Below are positions 9,988-15,248 of a DNA stretch of 33,391 nucleotides, one piece after another; the stretch's first letter is position 1, and each line of letters starts with the position of its first letter. The notes beneath the pieces were generated by a model that was not told the DNA's origin, made no database searches, and was given only the letters and a program-made list of their open reading frames with translations. Both the position numbers and the translations under genes were made by a program. Origin of the DNA: Crocinitomicaceae bacterium (GTDB taxonomy: Bacteria > Bacteroidota > Bacteroidia > Flavobacteriales_D > Crocinitomicaceae); contig JAKVAQ010000002.1 in NCBI GenBank assembly GCA_022447665.1, forward strand, positions 43,829 to 77,219. The letters run 5' to 3'.

Positions 9988-10917
9988 TTACTCAATTACC
10001 ACTTTTCTTACCATTTTCGTTTCACCATGAAGAAGGTTAACGATATAAGTTCCTGCAGCCCAATTATTAACTTCAATAGCTACTTTCTGAGATCCCTGCT
10101 CCTTATCTCGTTCAATCTTTATCATTTCTTTCCCATTGATATCATTCACTGTAATGGTTGTGGCAGCTTCATCCATGAACTCATATTCCAGGTTTATTTG
10201 ATCATGACTTGGATTTGGAAATACTTTAACCAAACCTTTATCTGCTTCATCTAATTTTTCATCTACACTAATTTTTCTAGAATCTCCCGAGACAATTACT
10301 AGTGTTACATCTTCCTTATCACCATACACTTTTACTTCAGCTACTCTGTTCGTGTCCTCCTCAACAAAATGATAGATGGGATCTTCTGAAGAAATCCATT
10401 TAACATCAGCTGGAGCATCACCCTCATCATCATTTATTTCTATAAACATTACTTGAGTTTCAAATTTCGGAGACTCACCTTCAAGATCATTCACCACAAT
10501 AGAACTAATCAAACTGTCCAAATTCACACCTTCCAAGTCATTGGAAATGAATTCAAGATTTATTTCGTTTACCATTTTCACATTCTTACTGGCGTTACCT
10601 TCATCGTCCACAATAAAGGTCTCCTCCTTTTCAACATGAAAAACATTCTCCTGATGGTCCTTAGTTAAGTCAATAATCTCAATCATCGGGTCATCATCAA
10701 AACCTAAAATCTCTAGATATTGTATTGGAGTCAATGAACTAGTTGATGATACAGTTGTGTCATAAATGGTTGTTTCCCCATTTGAAGTTCTAATTACTTC
10801 AATTCTTCTCTCATTACCCTCAGTTTGATCCTCTTCGTTCTCACCCTTAAAGGCAAATAGCATTGTGGTCAGTCCCACTCCTGCAATTGCGGATGTTAGT
10901 TTCATTTGATTTTTCAT
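9988..10917 (-). CDS. Acidic secreted protein with T9SS type A sorting domain
   Basis: Secreted protein of unknown function (309 aa from the ATG at 10917). The frame extends to a TTG at 10947, but the ATG gives a better signal sequence (MKNQMKLTSAIAGVGLTTMLFAF) and a -7 box sits just upstream, so I prefer it. The body (about 25-225) is strongly acidic, beta-rich and repeats short stretches such as NDLEG, NDDEG and VDDEG; I recognise no catalytic motif. The last 80 residues are a type A T9SS C-terminal domain: VKVFPNPSHDQINLEY, a core ITVNDINGKEM, and AAGTYIVNLLHGETKMVRKV at the end. T9SS exports such proteins across the outer membrane to the cell surface or medium. It is divergent from the decayed gene at 11057 and has a repeat box in its upstream region that matches the two-component operon. 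Confidence 0.85.
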   Translation of the reverse strand: MKNQMKLTSAIAGVGLTTMLFAFKGENEEDQTEGNERRIEVIRTSNGETTIYDTTVSSTSSLTPIQYLEILGFDDDPMIEIIDLTKDHQENVFHVEKEETFIVDDEGNASKNVKMVNEINLEFISNDLEGVNLDSLISSIVVNDLEGESPKFETQVMFIEINDDEGDAPADVKWISSEDPIYHFVEEDTNRVAEVKVYGDKEDVTLVIVSGDSRKISVDEKLDEADKGLVKVFPNPSHDQINLEYEFMDEAATTITVNDINGKEMIKIERDKEQGSQKVAIEVNNWAAGTYIVNLLHGETKMVRKVVIE

Positions 10918-10929
10918 GTGCTTTTTTAG

Positions 10930-10937
10930 CAAATCTA
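10930..10937 (-). promoter_or_regulatory. Possible -7 box of the acidic T9SS cargo gene
   Basis: TAGATTTG on the minus strand is an exact TAnnTTTG match, 13 bases before the ATG at 10917. It would give a very short leader and no clear -33 element is seen. It supports choosing 10917 rather than the TTG at 10947. Confidence 0.35.
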
Positions 10938-10981
10938 TGTCGAGCAATCACTATTTCAGGTTAATGACTTACTAACAAGAA

Positions 10982-10996
10982 GTTAAAAAAGGTTAA
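10982..10996 (+). promoter_or_regulatory. GTTAAAAAAGGTTAA box, copy 1 (putative response-regulator site)
   Basis: Two GTTAA half-sites start exactly 10 bp apart (10982 and 10992), one helical turn, the spacing typical of OmpR-family operators. The 15-mer is identical to that at 11941-11955. It lies in the divergent region between the T9SS cargo gene (-) and the decayed lipoprotein gene (+). A further single GGTTAATG occurs at 10959-10966. Confidence 0.5.
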
Positions 10997-11056
10997 AAGG
11001 AGTCATCAGATTTAAACTATCTTTAAAAAGGCAGATCAAAGAGAAGTTACGTTAAT

Positions 11057-11939
11057 ATGAAACAGTCATTTTCAATCTTGGGATTTTTATTGGTAATAAA
11101 CTTAATCCATGCAATAAACCGGATAAAAACTATGAATGTATTAACCATTCGCAAACGGTATATGCCAATCATTACGAAGCACTTTCAGCTTTTCCTTCAG
11201 ACGTGATTTCTCGATTATACGAGTCTAAGGCACCACTTTCAAACGGAGCATTAGGAAGGAATATGGATGGATACTTCTCTGTAAGATTTCAAATGGACAT
11301 GGGGCACGTTGCGAACTATGCCGCTCGTAATAATGACATTACCTCCTTAGATCAATACATTAAAACTTTAGAATATTCTTTCGACCACCAATTGGCCAAT
11401 GGAAACTTTAATTTAGTGGTTCCAGCTGAATTATCTGATTTACCTGCAGCCACGGAGGCAGATTCGGCAAGCGGTGTTGCCTTTTTAATGCGCTTGGTTT
11501 TTATTGTGTGGGGGAATTTCTAGGCGATGAAGAGGCCAAAAACATTGGAATCAACTATGCCGAAAGAGGTATTTCTCAACAAGATGCTAAAGGTTATTAT
11601 TATGAAAAAGGAGGTTGGGATAGCAGTTATCAAGGCGTTGGAACACTTAATGCCTTTCAGCTAGTTTTAGCCATTAATAATTCAGAGACCATTCACGCAT
11701 CTATTTGGAATTAGGTTTCATGCGGTACAGATTGGCAAAAATCACGCGTTGTAAAAAATGGAGAAATATCGTTAAAAGGAAATACACGCGTATACAAAGG
11801 AGGAGAAGAATTTCTAGGAAACGAAAAAGGAATTGCGTGGATCGATACTTATTTATCTTTCCTATACATGGAGTTTTTAAGTGGGAATAGCGAGTTTGGT
11901 ATAACAGCGGCTGAAGTACGTTCTTACTACGATAATTGA
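11057..11939 (+). pseudogene. Decayed gene for a secreted, probably lipid-anchored protein of unknown family
   Basis: One gene is spread over three frames. It opens with MKQSFSILGFLLVINLIH (frame of 11057), shifts near 11108-11113 into CNKPDKNYECINHSQTVYAN, shifts again near 11481-11487 after SGVAF into NALGFYCVGEFLGDEE, meets an in-frame TAG at 11712-11714, and reads on as VSCGTDWQKSRVV to a TGA at 11937-11939. Restoring one ATGC unit at 11109-11112 would give the lipobox-like LIHAC, and one extra T in the run 11482-11486 would heal the second shift. Reconstructed length is about 294 residues, with conserved-looking blocks such as YYEKGGWDSSYQGVGTLNAF. I do not recognise the family; an alpha/alpha-toroid sugar-active enzyme is only a guess. 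It lies between two copies of the GTTAA box, directly before the kinase. Confidence 0.8.
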
Positions 11940-11940
11940 G

Positions 11941-11955
11941 GTTAAAAAAGGTTAA
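11941..11955 (+). promoter_or_regulatory. GTTAAAAAAGGTTAA box, copy 2, upstream of the two-component operon
   Basis: Identical to 10982-10996, with GGTTAA half-sites at 11940 and 11950 (10-bp period). It ends 3 bases before the TTTTG of the kinase promoter, the usual place for an activator or autoregulating response regulator to bind. Confidence 0.55.
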
Positions 11956-11957
11956 TG

Positions 11958-11990
11958 TTTTGAACCTCAACATTAATCCATGTACATTTG
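11958..11990 (+). promoter_or_regulatory. Promoter of the two-component operon
   Basis: TTTG (11959-11962), a 20-base spacer and TACATTTG (11983-11990) match the Bacteroidota housekeeping promoter TTTG-N19-21-TAnnTTTG. The expected transcription start, about 11995-11998, lies after the ATG at 11980 and just before the ATG at 12001. Confidence 0.7.
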
Positions 11991-12000
11991 GTTTATCAGT

Positions 12001-13497
12001 ATGTTTAATCGCTCATTATCTGCCCTAGTATTTGTTATGGTAATAGCCTTAATTGGTATTACCACCGTTCAAGTTGTTTGGATTAGAAATACGTGGTCTG
12101 AAAGCGAAAAATTGCTAAAAAACAGAATTGAACAATGTTTAAATGACGTAGACTTACAGCTCAATAATTTAAGAAAGGTCCAAATTATTTCCGAAAAATT
12201 TGTGGGTCCCGATTTTACGGGTGATTCTGTTAAAATTGGAATCTCAGACATGCCCCCTTTTGAATTATCAGACTCTAATCAAATGCGCATTGAGATTATG
12301 TCAGAATCTCAAAATTTCACCTATGAAACTTATGAGGGCAACGATTTCATCGCATTAAAAGACACAACCCAACAAACACATAAGCATTCGGTTTTTACGG
12401 ATGAAGAAGCCCACTTAAACAACCTTGATGTTTTCATAACTCAGATTATTGAGGAAATCGATTTCTTAGACCCATCAAAAGACGCCAGGCTAGACAGTGT
12501 TCAAGTATCGAATGCTCTTGCTCTAAATTTCCAAAATAATGAATTAGAGAACGATATTATCTGGGGAATTAAAGACCATCAAAGAGATTCATTGATGTAT
12601 ACAAAAGACATTGAGAATTTCAATTTTAGCAAAGCTTTATTTGCTAACGATATTATATCTCCAAATAGATATTCGCTAATGGTTTATTATCCCATCAACG
12701 ATCTACTCTGGGGAAAAATTGGAGGTATGGTCGTTTTATCATTTGTGTTTACCTTAATCATTGTACTTGTATTTATTATGGCGTTAAGGCAAGTAAGAAA
12801 GCACAAAAAAATCTCTGAAATCAAATCCGACTTTCTTAATAATTTAACCCACGAACTTAAAACTCCTCTCGCCTCAATCTCTTTAGCAAGTGATACTTTA
12901 GCACATGTAAGTATCATTAGAAATCCAGAAAAGGTAAAAGAATATGCAAATCTTATTAAACAGGAAAAAAACAAACTTACCAGCCATGTAGAGCGAATTC
13001 TCGAATTGGCCGCACTAGAGAAAAATAGAATACAAATTCAGCCTGAAGGAATAAGTTTGAATGAGAATATAAAAATCTCCGTTGAAGCATTCGAATTATT
13101 GGCAAAAGAAAAGGATATTGATATTTACTTCTCAGAACAAGAGGAATACTCAGTCTTAGCAGACCCCAGGTATCTGCCATCTGTAATTGACAATATTATT
13201 GACAACGCGATCAAGTATTCTTCAAGACAGAGTAAAATTTCTATTAGCACTGAAGAATATGAAAATCATGTGGGTCTTTCTGTAAAGGATGAAGGCATAG
13301 GGATGACAAAGGATCAGTTAAAACAGTCACAAGAGAGTTTTTACAGGGCTGAAACTGGTAACATTCATAACACAAAAGGATTTGGTATAGGATTGTCTTT
13401 TGTGAAACAAGTAATGGAACTATTTAATGGTGAGTTAAAGATTGAGAGTGCAATAAATGAGGGAACAACAGTAACACTAAAATTCAAAAAGGCATGA
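12001..13497 (+). CDS. Membrane sensor histidine kinase
   Basis: Two-component sensor kinase (498 aa from 12001). The frame also has an ATG at 11980, but the promoter -7 box overlaps that region, so 12001 (MFNRSLSALVFVMVIAL) is chosen. One transmembrane helix lies at about 5-27, a periplasmic sensing domain at about 30-235 with no family I recognise, and a second helix at about 240-262. HisKA follows directly without a visible HAMP domain: LTHELKTPLAS with the phospho-accepting His at residue 284. The HATPase domain has the N box IDNIIDNAIKYS, G1 DEGIG and G2 GFGIGLS. The response regulator overlaps its last bases by ATGA. The general layout is like RprX/RprY of Bacteroides, but the signal is unknown. 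Confidence 0.93.
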   Translation: MFNRSLSALVFVMVIALIGITTVQVVWIRNTWSESEKLLKNRIEQCLNDVDLQLNNLRKVQIISEKFVGPDFTGDSVKIGISDMPPFELSDSNQMRIEIMSESQNFTYETYEGNDFIALKDTTQQTHKHSVFTDEEAHLNNLDVFITQIIEEIDFLDPSKDARLDSVQVSNALALNFQNNELENDIIWGIKDHQRDSLMYTKDIENFNFSKALFANDIISPNRYSLMVYYPINDLLWGKIGGMVVLSFVFTLIIVLVFIMALRQVRKHKKISEIKSDFLNNLTHELKTPLASISLASDTLAHVSIIRNPEKVKEYANLIKQEKNKLTSHVERILELAALEKNRIQIQPEGISLNENIKISVEAFELLAKEKDIDIYFSEQEEYSVLADPRYLPSVIDNIIDNAIKYSSRQSKISISTEEYENHVGLSVKDEGIGMTKDQLKQSQESFYRAETGNIHNTKGFGIGLSFVKQVMELFNGELKIESAINEGTTVTLKFKKA

Positions 13498-14180
13498 AGC
13501 GGATATTACTTGTTGAAGATGAATTGAGCTTTGGAGATTTACTTGCTAATTACTTGAAAATTTCGGGTTACGACGTGACTTGGTGTAAGGATGGATCAAC
13601 AGGTTATTCTGCAGTGATGCAAAATGATTTTGACCTTTGTATACTTGATGTAATGATGCCTAACATGGATGGATTCACACTTGGCGAAAAGATTAAAGAG
13701 AAAAAGAACAATACACCATTCTTTTATTTGACCGCTAAAAACATGAAGGAAGATCTAATAAAAGGATACGGAATTGGGGCGGATGATTACCTGACTAAAC
13801 CTTTTGATACTGACGTTCTTTTACTCAAAATAAATGCGATACTTAATAGAACTGCTCTAAAAAAAGAAGTGATTAAAAAGGAGGTATACGAAATCGATCA
13901 TCTCACATTTAAACCCAAAACACGCATGCTTATTTCGGGGAATGAAGAAACGAAACTCTCTCCCAAAGAAGCTGCTCTTCTAGAATTACTATGTCAACAC
14001 ATGAATACTGTGATGCCTCGCGATTTGGCATTAAATGAAATTTGGAAAGAGAATAATTACTTCACAAAAAGAAGCATGGATGTTTACATTAACAAACTCC
14101 GAAAACGGTTTTCAGATAGCACGAAGATTCAAATCGAAACTTTCCATCAAATGGGGTTTCAACTCCAAGTAAAGCCCTAA
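13494..14180 (+). CDS. OmpR-family response regulator
   Basis: DNA-binding response regulator partnered with the kinase upstream (228 aa); the ATG overlaps the kinase stop by 4 bases. The receiver domain at about 1-120 has the acidic pocket VEDE (7-10), the phospho-acceptor Asp52 in LDVMMPNMDG, Thr80 and Lys102 in LTKPFD. A winged-helix effector domain occupies about 130-225 (KLSPKEAALLELLC; MDVYINKLRKRF). Such domains bind tandem direct repeats spaced 10-11 bp, which fits the GTTAA boxes at 11941 and 10982. RprY-like by organisation. The stop codon abuts the convergent stop of the next gene with no base between, leaving no room for a dedicated terminator. Confidence 0.95.
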   Translation: MKRILLVEDELSFGDLLANYLKISGYDVTWCKDGSTGYSAVMQNDFDLCILDVMMPNMDGFTLGEKIKEKKNNTPFFYLTAKNMKEDLIKGYGIGADDYLTKPFDTDVLLLKINAILNRTALKKEVIKKEVYEIDHLTFKPKTRMLISGNEETKLSPKEAALLELLCQHMNTVMPRDLALNEIWKENNYFTKRSMDVYINKLRKRFSDSTKIQIETFHQMGFQLQVKP

Positions 14181-15248
14181 TTACTTTTTCTTTTTATACT
14201 TTTCTTTTAGTTCGTCTTTCCAATTTGGCGCATCAGATTTTGGCCTAGGGTCAGACTTTTTATACCGGTCTTTTACGCTATCAAGACTCACCCTACCATT
14301 CGCCATCTTCTCCAACCCATCATTACCTTTTGAACTTCCTTTTTCTTTTGGTGGATTCGACTTCGTTTCTTTTTTAGCTTCGGACTTAGCCTTACTTTTA
14401 TCTTCAATTTTGGAGGCTTCTGAGGTCGCAGGTTTCTTTTCCTCTTTGGCTAAAACTTTATCCTCTGATTTTTTTGCGACACTTTCTTTCTTCTCAGCTA
14501 CAGTCTTTTTTGGCTTATCTTCTTTTTTCTTTTTGTCCGCTCCAGGTACTGAAGTAATGTGTTCTTTCGCCGCAATATCCGCGTCGTACATGTCAGCGAC
14601 TGCCTCGTCAACTATCTGTGTACTTACTTTTTGCTCTCTTGGATCACCTGTAATAGGCCCCTCAGGAGTAACCAAAATTTTCTTGCCTTTGTGCTTAAGG
14701 TCAGGAATATAATATGGTAATCCTCGTTTTTTTCTCCACCATGGTGCTTCATATACCGCCTGTGATACTCCGAGTGCGAAAAGCACGTAAAATCCATTGA
14801 ACACAATACATAAAATTTTATCCGTTGTAGAGTGCTTTCCAAATGAGTCACACACTTCAATAAACATCAATACCATAAACGCTATTATGGGAATTAAACT
14901 CGCCCCTATAATTGAAAGTGGAACTGCCAAATCACCAATGGTACCATGTCCTGGAATCTGCTCGCCTGAAACTGGGTCATAAGTTGGAAAATGAGAATCG
15001 AATTCTCCATAATAAGCAGCAAAAATAACCATGATAACTACACCCGGAAGAATCAGAAAAAGTGAGTGCTTCACCGGTCTTCCCACGACCTTACAAAACA
15101 CCATTACATTCCAAACAGGAACCAAGGCTGAAATAGCAGGCTGACCAGCTTTATTGTAAAGCGACATTTGAGAAACAAGACCAATAAAGGTTAAAATGAC
15201 AAGTGCCACCCAAATCCCTGGGGAAAGGTGGGTAATAAATTCAATCAT
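14181..15248 (-). CDS. DUF5684-like membrane protein with Lys-rich tail
   Basis: Predicted inner-membrane protein of 355 aa. The N-terminal half has four hydrophobic segments (about 10-28, 65-85, 108-132, 143-162). The stretch KAGQPAISALVPVWNVMV, followed by KVVGRP, is like the DUF5684-type domain, which is also found fused to signal peptidase I in some Bacteroidota; no signal peptidase motif is present here. The C-terminal part (about 235-355) is a low-complexity tail rich in K, E, S and A, ending KDELKEKYKKKK, probably cytoplasmic and disordered. The function is unknown. The gene converges on the response regulator with back-to-back stops (TAA/TTA). The Lys-rich tail could bind nucleic acid or acidic partners; this is only inference. 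Confidence 0.75.
   Translation of the reverse strand: MIEFITHLSPGIWVALVILTFIGLVSQMSLYNKAGQPAISALVPVWNVMVFCKVVGRPVKHSLFLILPGVVIMVIFAAYYGEFDSHFPTYDPVSGEQIPGHGTIGDLAVPLSIIGASLIPIIAFMVLMFIEVCDSFGKHSTTDKILCIVFNGFYVLFALGVSQAVYEAPWWRKKRGLPYYIPDLKHKGKKILVTPEGPITGDPREQKVSTQIVDEAVADMYDADIAAKEHITSVPGADKKKKEDKPKKTVAEKKESVAKKSEDKVLAKEEKKPATSEASKIEDKSKAKSEAKKETKSNPPKEKGSSKGNDGLEKMANGRVSLDSVKDRYKKSDPRPKSDAPNWKDELKEKYKKKK

Follow-up and report, generated by a model that had tools for sequence, protein, structure and literature searches.

A predicted bidirectional operator of an OmpR-type two-component system, apparently split by an inserted segment, in a Crocinitomicaceae genome

The locus considered here lies in a 33,391-nucleotide stretch of DNA from a Crocinitomicaceae bacterium, called the window throughout. 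It carries one 15-bp box, GTTAAAAAAGGTTAA, twice on the plus strand, at 10982-10996 and at 11941-11955, and each copy contains two GTTAA half-sites 10 bp apart. An earlier note had described this box, and both copies were located as claimed. The question that arises is what such a box does, which genes it serves and why it is present twice. Comparison with related genomes makes it probable that the box forms the part nearest the kinase gene in a bidirectional operator, as predicted from sequence, that belongs to an OmpR-type two-component system and is split here by a segment of DNA.

The box as part of a longer array

Copy 1 is located, as stated before, between an acidic T9SS-tail cargo gene of 309 aa (9988..10917, minus strand) and a decayed lipoprotein gene (11058..11939, plus strand), which extends over different frames and has an in-frame TAG at 11712-11714. 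Copy 2 is a two-half-site box at the promoter of a sensor kinase gene. It had been claimed to end 3 bp before a -33 element, and at that distance the sequence reads TTTG (11959-11962, plus strand), which we take to be a -33-like element of the kinase promoter on a presumed consensus. When the repeat is extended, an 18-bp match with one mismatch is obtained (10979-10996 and 11938-11955). Within 1 kb, the window has no exact, non-overlapping 15-mer direct repeat other than the GTTAAAAAAGGTTAA pair. When the window was simulated 300 times with a second-order Markov model, 18 of the simulated stretches held such a repeat, which makes the pair by itself just slightly out of the ordinary. Tolerating up to three mismatches gives 4 matches to the box in the window versus 4.30 expected.

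Copy 1 does not stand by itself. It forms the end of a 37-bp array (10960-10996, plus strand) that has GTTAA at 10960-10964, 10982-10986 and 10992-10996 and, in degenerate form, ACTAA at 10971-10975. The 5′ end of the array is called A1 and the 3′ end B2. The corresponding pattern, GTTAA-N15..17-GTTAA-N5..6-GTTAA, was recognised upstream of kinase homologues in other genera, and in some genomes (G074 C155, G085 C68) the second half-site is perfect as well, giving four GTTAA with periods of 11, 11 and 10 bp. The array has the make-up of an OmpR/PhoB-type operator, i.e., tandem direct repeats with a 10-11 bp period upstream of a promoter. The tandem box proposed in the earlier note was found to be real but incomplete as a unit, since the whole unit is an array of three to four half-sites, flanked on either side by a promoter at a set distance.

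Counting such sequences is of little help. In the own genome (4.06 Mb) the exact box occurs at three places, the two window copies and C56:1416, between two GLPGLI genes. Allowing one mismatch gives 10 places versus 7 for the reversed-pattern control, and the one-mismatch 15-mers on C4, C34, C42, C49 and C84 fall within mechanical reading frames. The genome scan that the earlier note had proposed, GGTTAA-N4-GGTTAA with one mismatch, yields 25 places in the own genome versus 73 for the control, thus no excess, and the array with two mismatches yields 21 versus 53. Across 119 related genomes the exact plain array occurs at 82 places; as the reversed control is higher (116), this number is not counted as evidence. 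A scan of named genomes yielded one distant relative only. Counts of the 15-mer, of GGTTAA-N4-GGTTAA, of the two-mismatch array and of the plain array were all set aside, their signal not being separable from background. The suspicion that the box is scattered at random is not dispelled by these counts; it is dispelled by the position of the sites. Two single sites in the own genome are worth recording. At L005:1501-1515 (C24), GGTAAAAAAGGTTAA, one mismatch off the box, lies between two divergent frames, and at L222:2302-2317 (C15) a GGTTAA-N4-GGTTAA on the minus strand bridges two frames, covering the last part of the first and the beginning of the other, which is 822 aa long.

Polarity and promoter distances

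The 82 exact arrays, 81 of them outside the window, were compared with the kinase, regulator, cargo, lipoprotein pieces and DUF5684 neighbour of the window and with the GLPGLI and barrel proteins of C56, using a distance limit of 700 bp for kinase starts. At least one query protein was found near 45 of the 82. A kinase start lies within the limit on the 3′ (B2) side in 34 arrays and on the 5′ (A1) side in one (L154), and the window is a further kinase case, reached across its 959-bp segment. The sign test for 35:1 gives 1.1e-9 when the window across its segment and L156 are both counted, the related genomes not being independent of each other. L156 was later set aside, its kinase match being 477 bp off and a regulator match nearer, which leaves 33 kinase-array loci with kinase starts 16-136 bp from the array. 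T9SS-cargo matches are found 14 times on the A1 side (the window's own gene included, and several of them in the tail only) and GLPGLI genes six times, and neither occurs on the B2 side. The promoter comparison that the earlier note had called for turns out in its favour, with the array upstream of orthologous kinases at a polarity of 34:1. A further 44 arrays belong neither to the kinase loci nor to the GLPGLI sites nor to the window; among them are L154 and L156, which have a kinase match nearby, four arrays where the regulator alone is matched, and L195, where the match is to the cargo tail.

Promoter positions give the same sidedness a scale. TAnnTTTG is described as the sigma-A -7 box, covering positions -12 to -5 (PMC9723704). 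An exact TAnnTTTG starts 27-29 bp beyond B2 in 29 of the 33 kinase-array loci and, on the A1 side, at a distance of exactly 22 bp in 22 of them; at the GLPGLI sites it is found at 22 bp in 3/6. Among the remaining 44 arrays it occurs anywhere from 10 to 45 bp off in 8 (B2) and 7 (A1), with two at 27 bp and one at 22 bp, and its background is 0.014 per 36-bp stretch of the window. When half-site patterns are coupled to the promoter, 204 places are found versus 35 for the reversed pattern, and a second pattern gives 41 versus 12; the latter has two matches in the own genome, namely copy 1 and the C56 GLPGLI site. In the window, the cargo -7 box TAGATTTG (10930..10937, minus strand) lies 22 bp beyond A1 and the kinase -7 box TACATTTG (11983..11990, plus strand) 27 bp beyond copy 2. 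These distances would put the end of copy 2 near -40 of the kinase transcription start and A1 near -39 to -35 of the cargo start. Because of the sidedness and the fixed promoter distances on both sides, the array is predicted to be a bidirectional operator for the two-component operon and the divergent acidic T9SS cargo gene.

By the -12 to -5 rule (PMC9723704), transcription is predicted to start near 10925 on the minus strand for the cargo gene and near 11995 for the kinase gene. The ATG at 12001 is therefore preferred as start codon to that at 11980, which lies upstream of this point, and the kinase gene extends over 12001..13497 (plus strand). Likely kinase start codons also lie 4-10 nt after the -7 box in the window (11983-12003) and in L099, L102, L106, L107, L108, L110, L112 and L114, which would leave the kinase mRNA with almost no leader or none at all; in F. 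psychrophilum, 5.5% of the mRNAs are reported to be leaderless (PMC9723704).

Promoter-coupled boxes are also seen in front of other genes. GTTAA-N6-GTTAA with TAnnTTTG at 27-29 bp occurs upstream of DUF1573 genes in the own genome (L221:2953-3004, C42) and in G004 (L224:2182-2232). GTTAA-N5-GTTAA with TAnnTTTG, separated by a GCAAA stretch, occurs upstream of an M23 peptidase gene in the same two genomes (L220:2982-3031, C36; L223:2826-2875), and look-alikes of this site recur in other genomes of the promoter-coupled scan. A promoter-coupled two-half-site box is further found upstream of a YceI gene (L219:3021-3072, C11 of the own genome).

The sensor kinase and its regulator

The kinase has HisKA and HATPase_c domains. 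Its structure model has a mean pLDDT of 71.5, with the middle of the sensor (67-160) under 50, and the top structure matches are histidine-kinase catalytic cores, with nothing on the sensor part. The gene that follows (13494..14180, plus strand) encodes an OmpR-type response regulator, the presumed reader of the array, identified by its Response_reg and Trans_reg_C domains and by its place in a tree. It scores 97 bits for PF00072 (cut-off 30.2) and 63.4 bits for PF00486 (cut-off 26.2), as is expected of an OmpR/PhoB-type regulator. The best-scoring NCBIfam model is the RprY model NF051850; at 244 bits the protein is below the cut-off of 370 and is not assigned to RprY. Beyond the regulator lies a DUF5684 gene (14181-15248), a match to which is also present near the locus in L099, L102, L106 and L108.

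The box is conserved upstream of orthologous kinase operons. In 30 kinase loci picked by protein score alone, a perfect two-half-site box is present upstream of 14/14 kinases with frames of 506-569 aa, the window included, versus 2/16 with frames of 307-461 aa; such a box appeared in 14 of 5000 shuffles of one 350-bp stretch. L115, the locus of a paralogue on C46, has the box as well and was left out of the 14/14 because it was fetched after its box was known. The six top kinases of other genomes by score (L012-L017) all have the exact three-half-site array. In the presumed recognition helix, whose position we assume from the winged-helix fold, DVY is found in 38/38 regulators with array or box and DVF in 9/9 of the other class, yet L027 and L030, with short-frame kinases and DVF regulators, have a perfect box. 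In a regulator tree of 47 rows, from which L202 and L028 were left out as short and to which L107 has no regulator in its stretch to contribute, the window falls in a clade of 15 (support 100/97). A sister clade of 20 holds the C46 paralogue, and both clades together are supported at 98/92. All 15 rows of the window clade, from 11 genera and three families, have the array; as most tree rows were chosen for having it, members without an array may have been missed.

The comparison with relatives supports several proposals of the earlier note, i.e., autoregulation, by the array upstream of kinase operons; the cargo gene as candidate target, by the array between kinase and T9SS-tail gene in 11 genera; and a putative tandem direct-repeat operator of the OmpR type. 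In the mechanism that we propose, the cognate regulator would bind the array and set both promoters, its dimers contacting tandem GTTAA half-sites with a period of about 11, 11 and 10 bp. The 3′ end, some 40 bp upstream of the kinase transcription start, would serve autoregulation. The 5′ end would abut the -33 region of the divergent acidic T9SS-protein gene, so that one array could set both the sensor and a secreted partner. Activation is favoured over repression, the cargo gene presumably being activated from beside its -33 region. In front of a GLPGLI/outer-membrane-barrel gene pair there is a second array in the own genome. It lies at C56:1416-1451 (minus strand) between two GLPGLI genes (TIGR01200, 139.3 and 151.5 bits; cut-off 50), with its A1 end toward the second, after which comes a gene that has CarboxypepD_reg and OMP_b-brl_3 domains. 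In L114 (G029) and L171 (G063), a single array separates GLPGLI genes from a divergently oriented, more distant kinase/regulator pair, which indicates that GLPGLI can replace the cargo.

Whether the window regulator is the only reader is a separate matter. The operator might be read mainly or also by the RprY-like regulator of the C46 paralogue, which would mean cross-control of the window kinase instead of pure autoregulation. The C46 kinase has GTTAAAAAAAGTTAA upstream, one base different from GTTAAAAAAGGTTAA, and its regulator shares the RSMDVY helix with that of the window and has a higher NF051850 score (299.8 versus 244 bits; the C22 regulator also scores higher than that of the window). 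Given this nearly identical box, cross-control is conceivable; we nevertheless consider it unlikely, since the window clade pairs the array with a T9SS-tail gene, whereas in the sister clade an aldehyde-dehydrogenase-like gene takes this place in 10 of the 14 rows whose array is exact. That the repeat is due to chance, or is a purely mechanical duplication in A+T-rich DNA with no regulatory role, agrees with the simulated windows and with own-genome counts that do not exceed their controls. The side on which the genes lie, the distances to the promoters and the conservation of the box in front of orthologous kinases make this explanation very improbable.

A split operator and its neighbours

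The presence of two copies is best read from their outer flanks. Copy 1 has the cargo -7 box beyond A1 and no exact TAnnTTTG beyond B2; copy 2 has the kinase -7 box beyond B2 and no exact TAnnTTTG on its opposite side. Joining 10996 to 11956 rebuilds the sister-locus layout, with distances of 22 and 27 bp. The 959 bp in between (10997..11955) have no counterpart in sister loci, and their end duplicates 15 bp of the array (18 bp with one mismatch). With the cargo-side distance preserved at copy 1 and the kinase-side distance at copy 2, one operator appears to have been split. The simplest reading is that a segment carrying the lipoprotein gene entered the array and duplicated its final 15-18 bp; the full array would have stayed with the cargo gene and a two-half-site copy with the kinase, after which the lipoprotein gene decayed. 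The genomes searched are of other genera, and the insertion is read from these more distant sister loci. By eye, no terminal inverted repeat was seen at the segment ends.

The other way to account for two copies is that each neighbour kept its own box, the lipoprotein gene being an old regulon member lost elsewhere and the copies independent operators. Copy 1 is indeed correctly oriented and upstream of this gene, and 21 bp beyond it (11018-11025) the one-mismatch TATCTTTA may be a decayed promoter for the gene. The kinase-side distance, however, is 27-29 bp and not 21, the flanks of the copies jointly rebuild one standard operator, and the lipoprotein piece of 127 aa was found in the own genome only among 118 genomes, with no match in the 117 other relatives and none within 700 bp of the 81 other arrays. 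Independent operators are thus quite improbable. The same absences, and the lack of an exact TAnnTTTG on that side of copy 1, speak against the suggestion of the earlier note that the lost lipoprotein was a target. Read through its interruptions, the lipoprotein has one other match among 395 genomes of the class, in G273, where the homologue is intact (365 aa, with a lipobox-like VAGC); in the 9 kb around it no GTTAA-N5/6-GTTAA box was found. With a single operator apparently cut in two by an inserted gene, the window would be a natural experiment.

GTTAA is also the core of the ArcA site. In E. coli, ArcA sites are described as containing from two to five direct repeats, in most cases with a spacing of 11 bp (PMC3798270); ArcA is likewise an OmpR/PhoB-family regulator that reads direct repeats, as is proposed for the array, although it is a different member of the family with a different physiology. 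For PhoP(R) of Riemerella anatipestifer, a DAP-seq motif with TTTAACA as its most conserved letters is reported (PMC9603813, PMC5399024); the protein binds upstream of its own operon in EMSA, and five GLPGLI genes are among its 50 candidate direct targets (PMC9603813). Like the window regulator, it is an OmpR-family protein of a Flavobacteriaceae-related host, and the reverse complement of its motif, TGTTAAA, holds GTTAA, whereas neither a repeat-array geometry nor an operator shared by kinase and T9SS cargo nor a split operator is described in the available portions of these accounts. For RprXY of Bacteroides and Porphyromonas, the system of the best but sub-threshold model, the accessible text gives no binding motif (PMC3646045). 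The heme regulator HaeR/PG0720 was rejected as a precedent, the excerpts available giving no GTTAA motif (PMC8757827, PMC3764172). In a partial literature search, no earlier description of a shared kinase/T9SS-cargo operator was found. The two-component system, present among the genomes examined in 11 genera from three families, now has a predicted operator of defined polarity and exact distances to the promoters. This operator links the system to a T9SS-tail protein family and to GLPGLI/outer-membrane-barrel genes, so that both the target genes of the sensor and a possible secretion-feedback loop can be tested directly.

Such a loop is suggested by P. gingivalis, where PorA, a T9SS-tail protein, is described as acting upstream of the sensor kinase PorY (PMC7712824), and feedback from cargo to sensor is plausible by analogy. 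The secreted acidic protein could be the ligand or reporter of its own sensor, the kinase reading its export or surface binding and the shared array keeping kinase and cargo in step; we regard this as tentative and rather unlikely. If true, it would be a PorA-PorY-like secretion-feedback circuit kept as one divergent unit in at least 11 genera. That unit of sensor, regulator and secreted protein would set it apart from PorA-PorY, as PorX and PorY, going by the available part of the source, do not form a divergent unit with porA (PMC7712824).

The cargo has a T9SS type A sorting domain at its C-terminus (PF18962, 51.6 bits, cut-off 27; TIGR04183, 43.1 bits, cut-off 23), from which export by the T9SS is predicted, and no other named domain. 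The PF18962 tail is present in 15/15 A1-side proteins scanned (14 window-clade loci and L107), L100 being excluded from scan and alignment as it is cut by a contig end. The window-clade A1-side proteins have 15-24% acidic residues and share an N-terminal module with the consensus KxYxVI...DT...SxYTxExFL. The structure model of the cargo is poor (mean pLDDT 59.6) except for the tail and a short N-terminal part, and the top hit in Foldseek is a DUF3244 protein (E 3.6e-5). In the sister clade, the ten aldehyde-dehydrogenase-like genes were recognised by eye and Pfam confirms two of them, L111 and L203 (PF00171, 561 and 574 bits), while L152 has a T9SS-tail match on the 5′ side instead.
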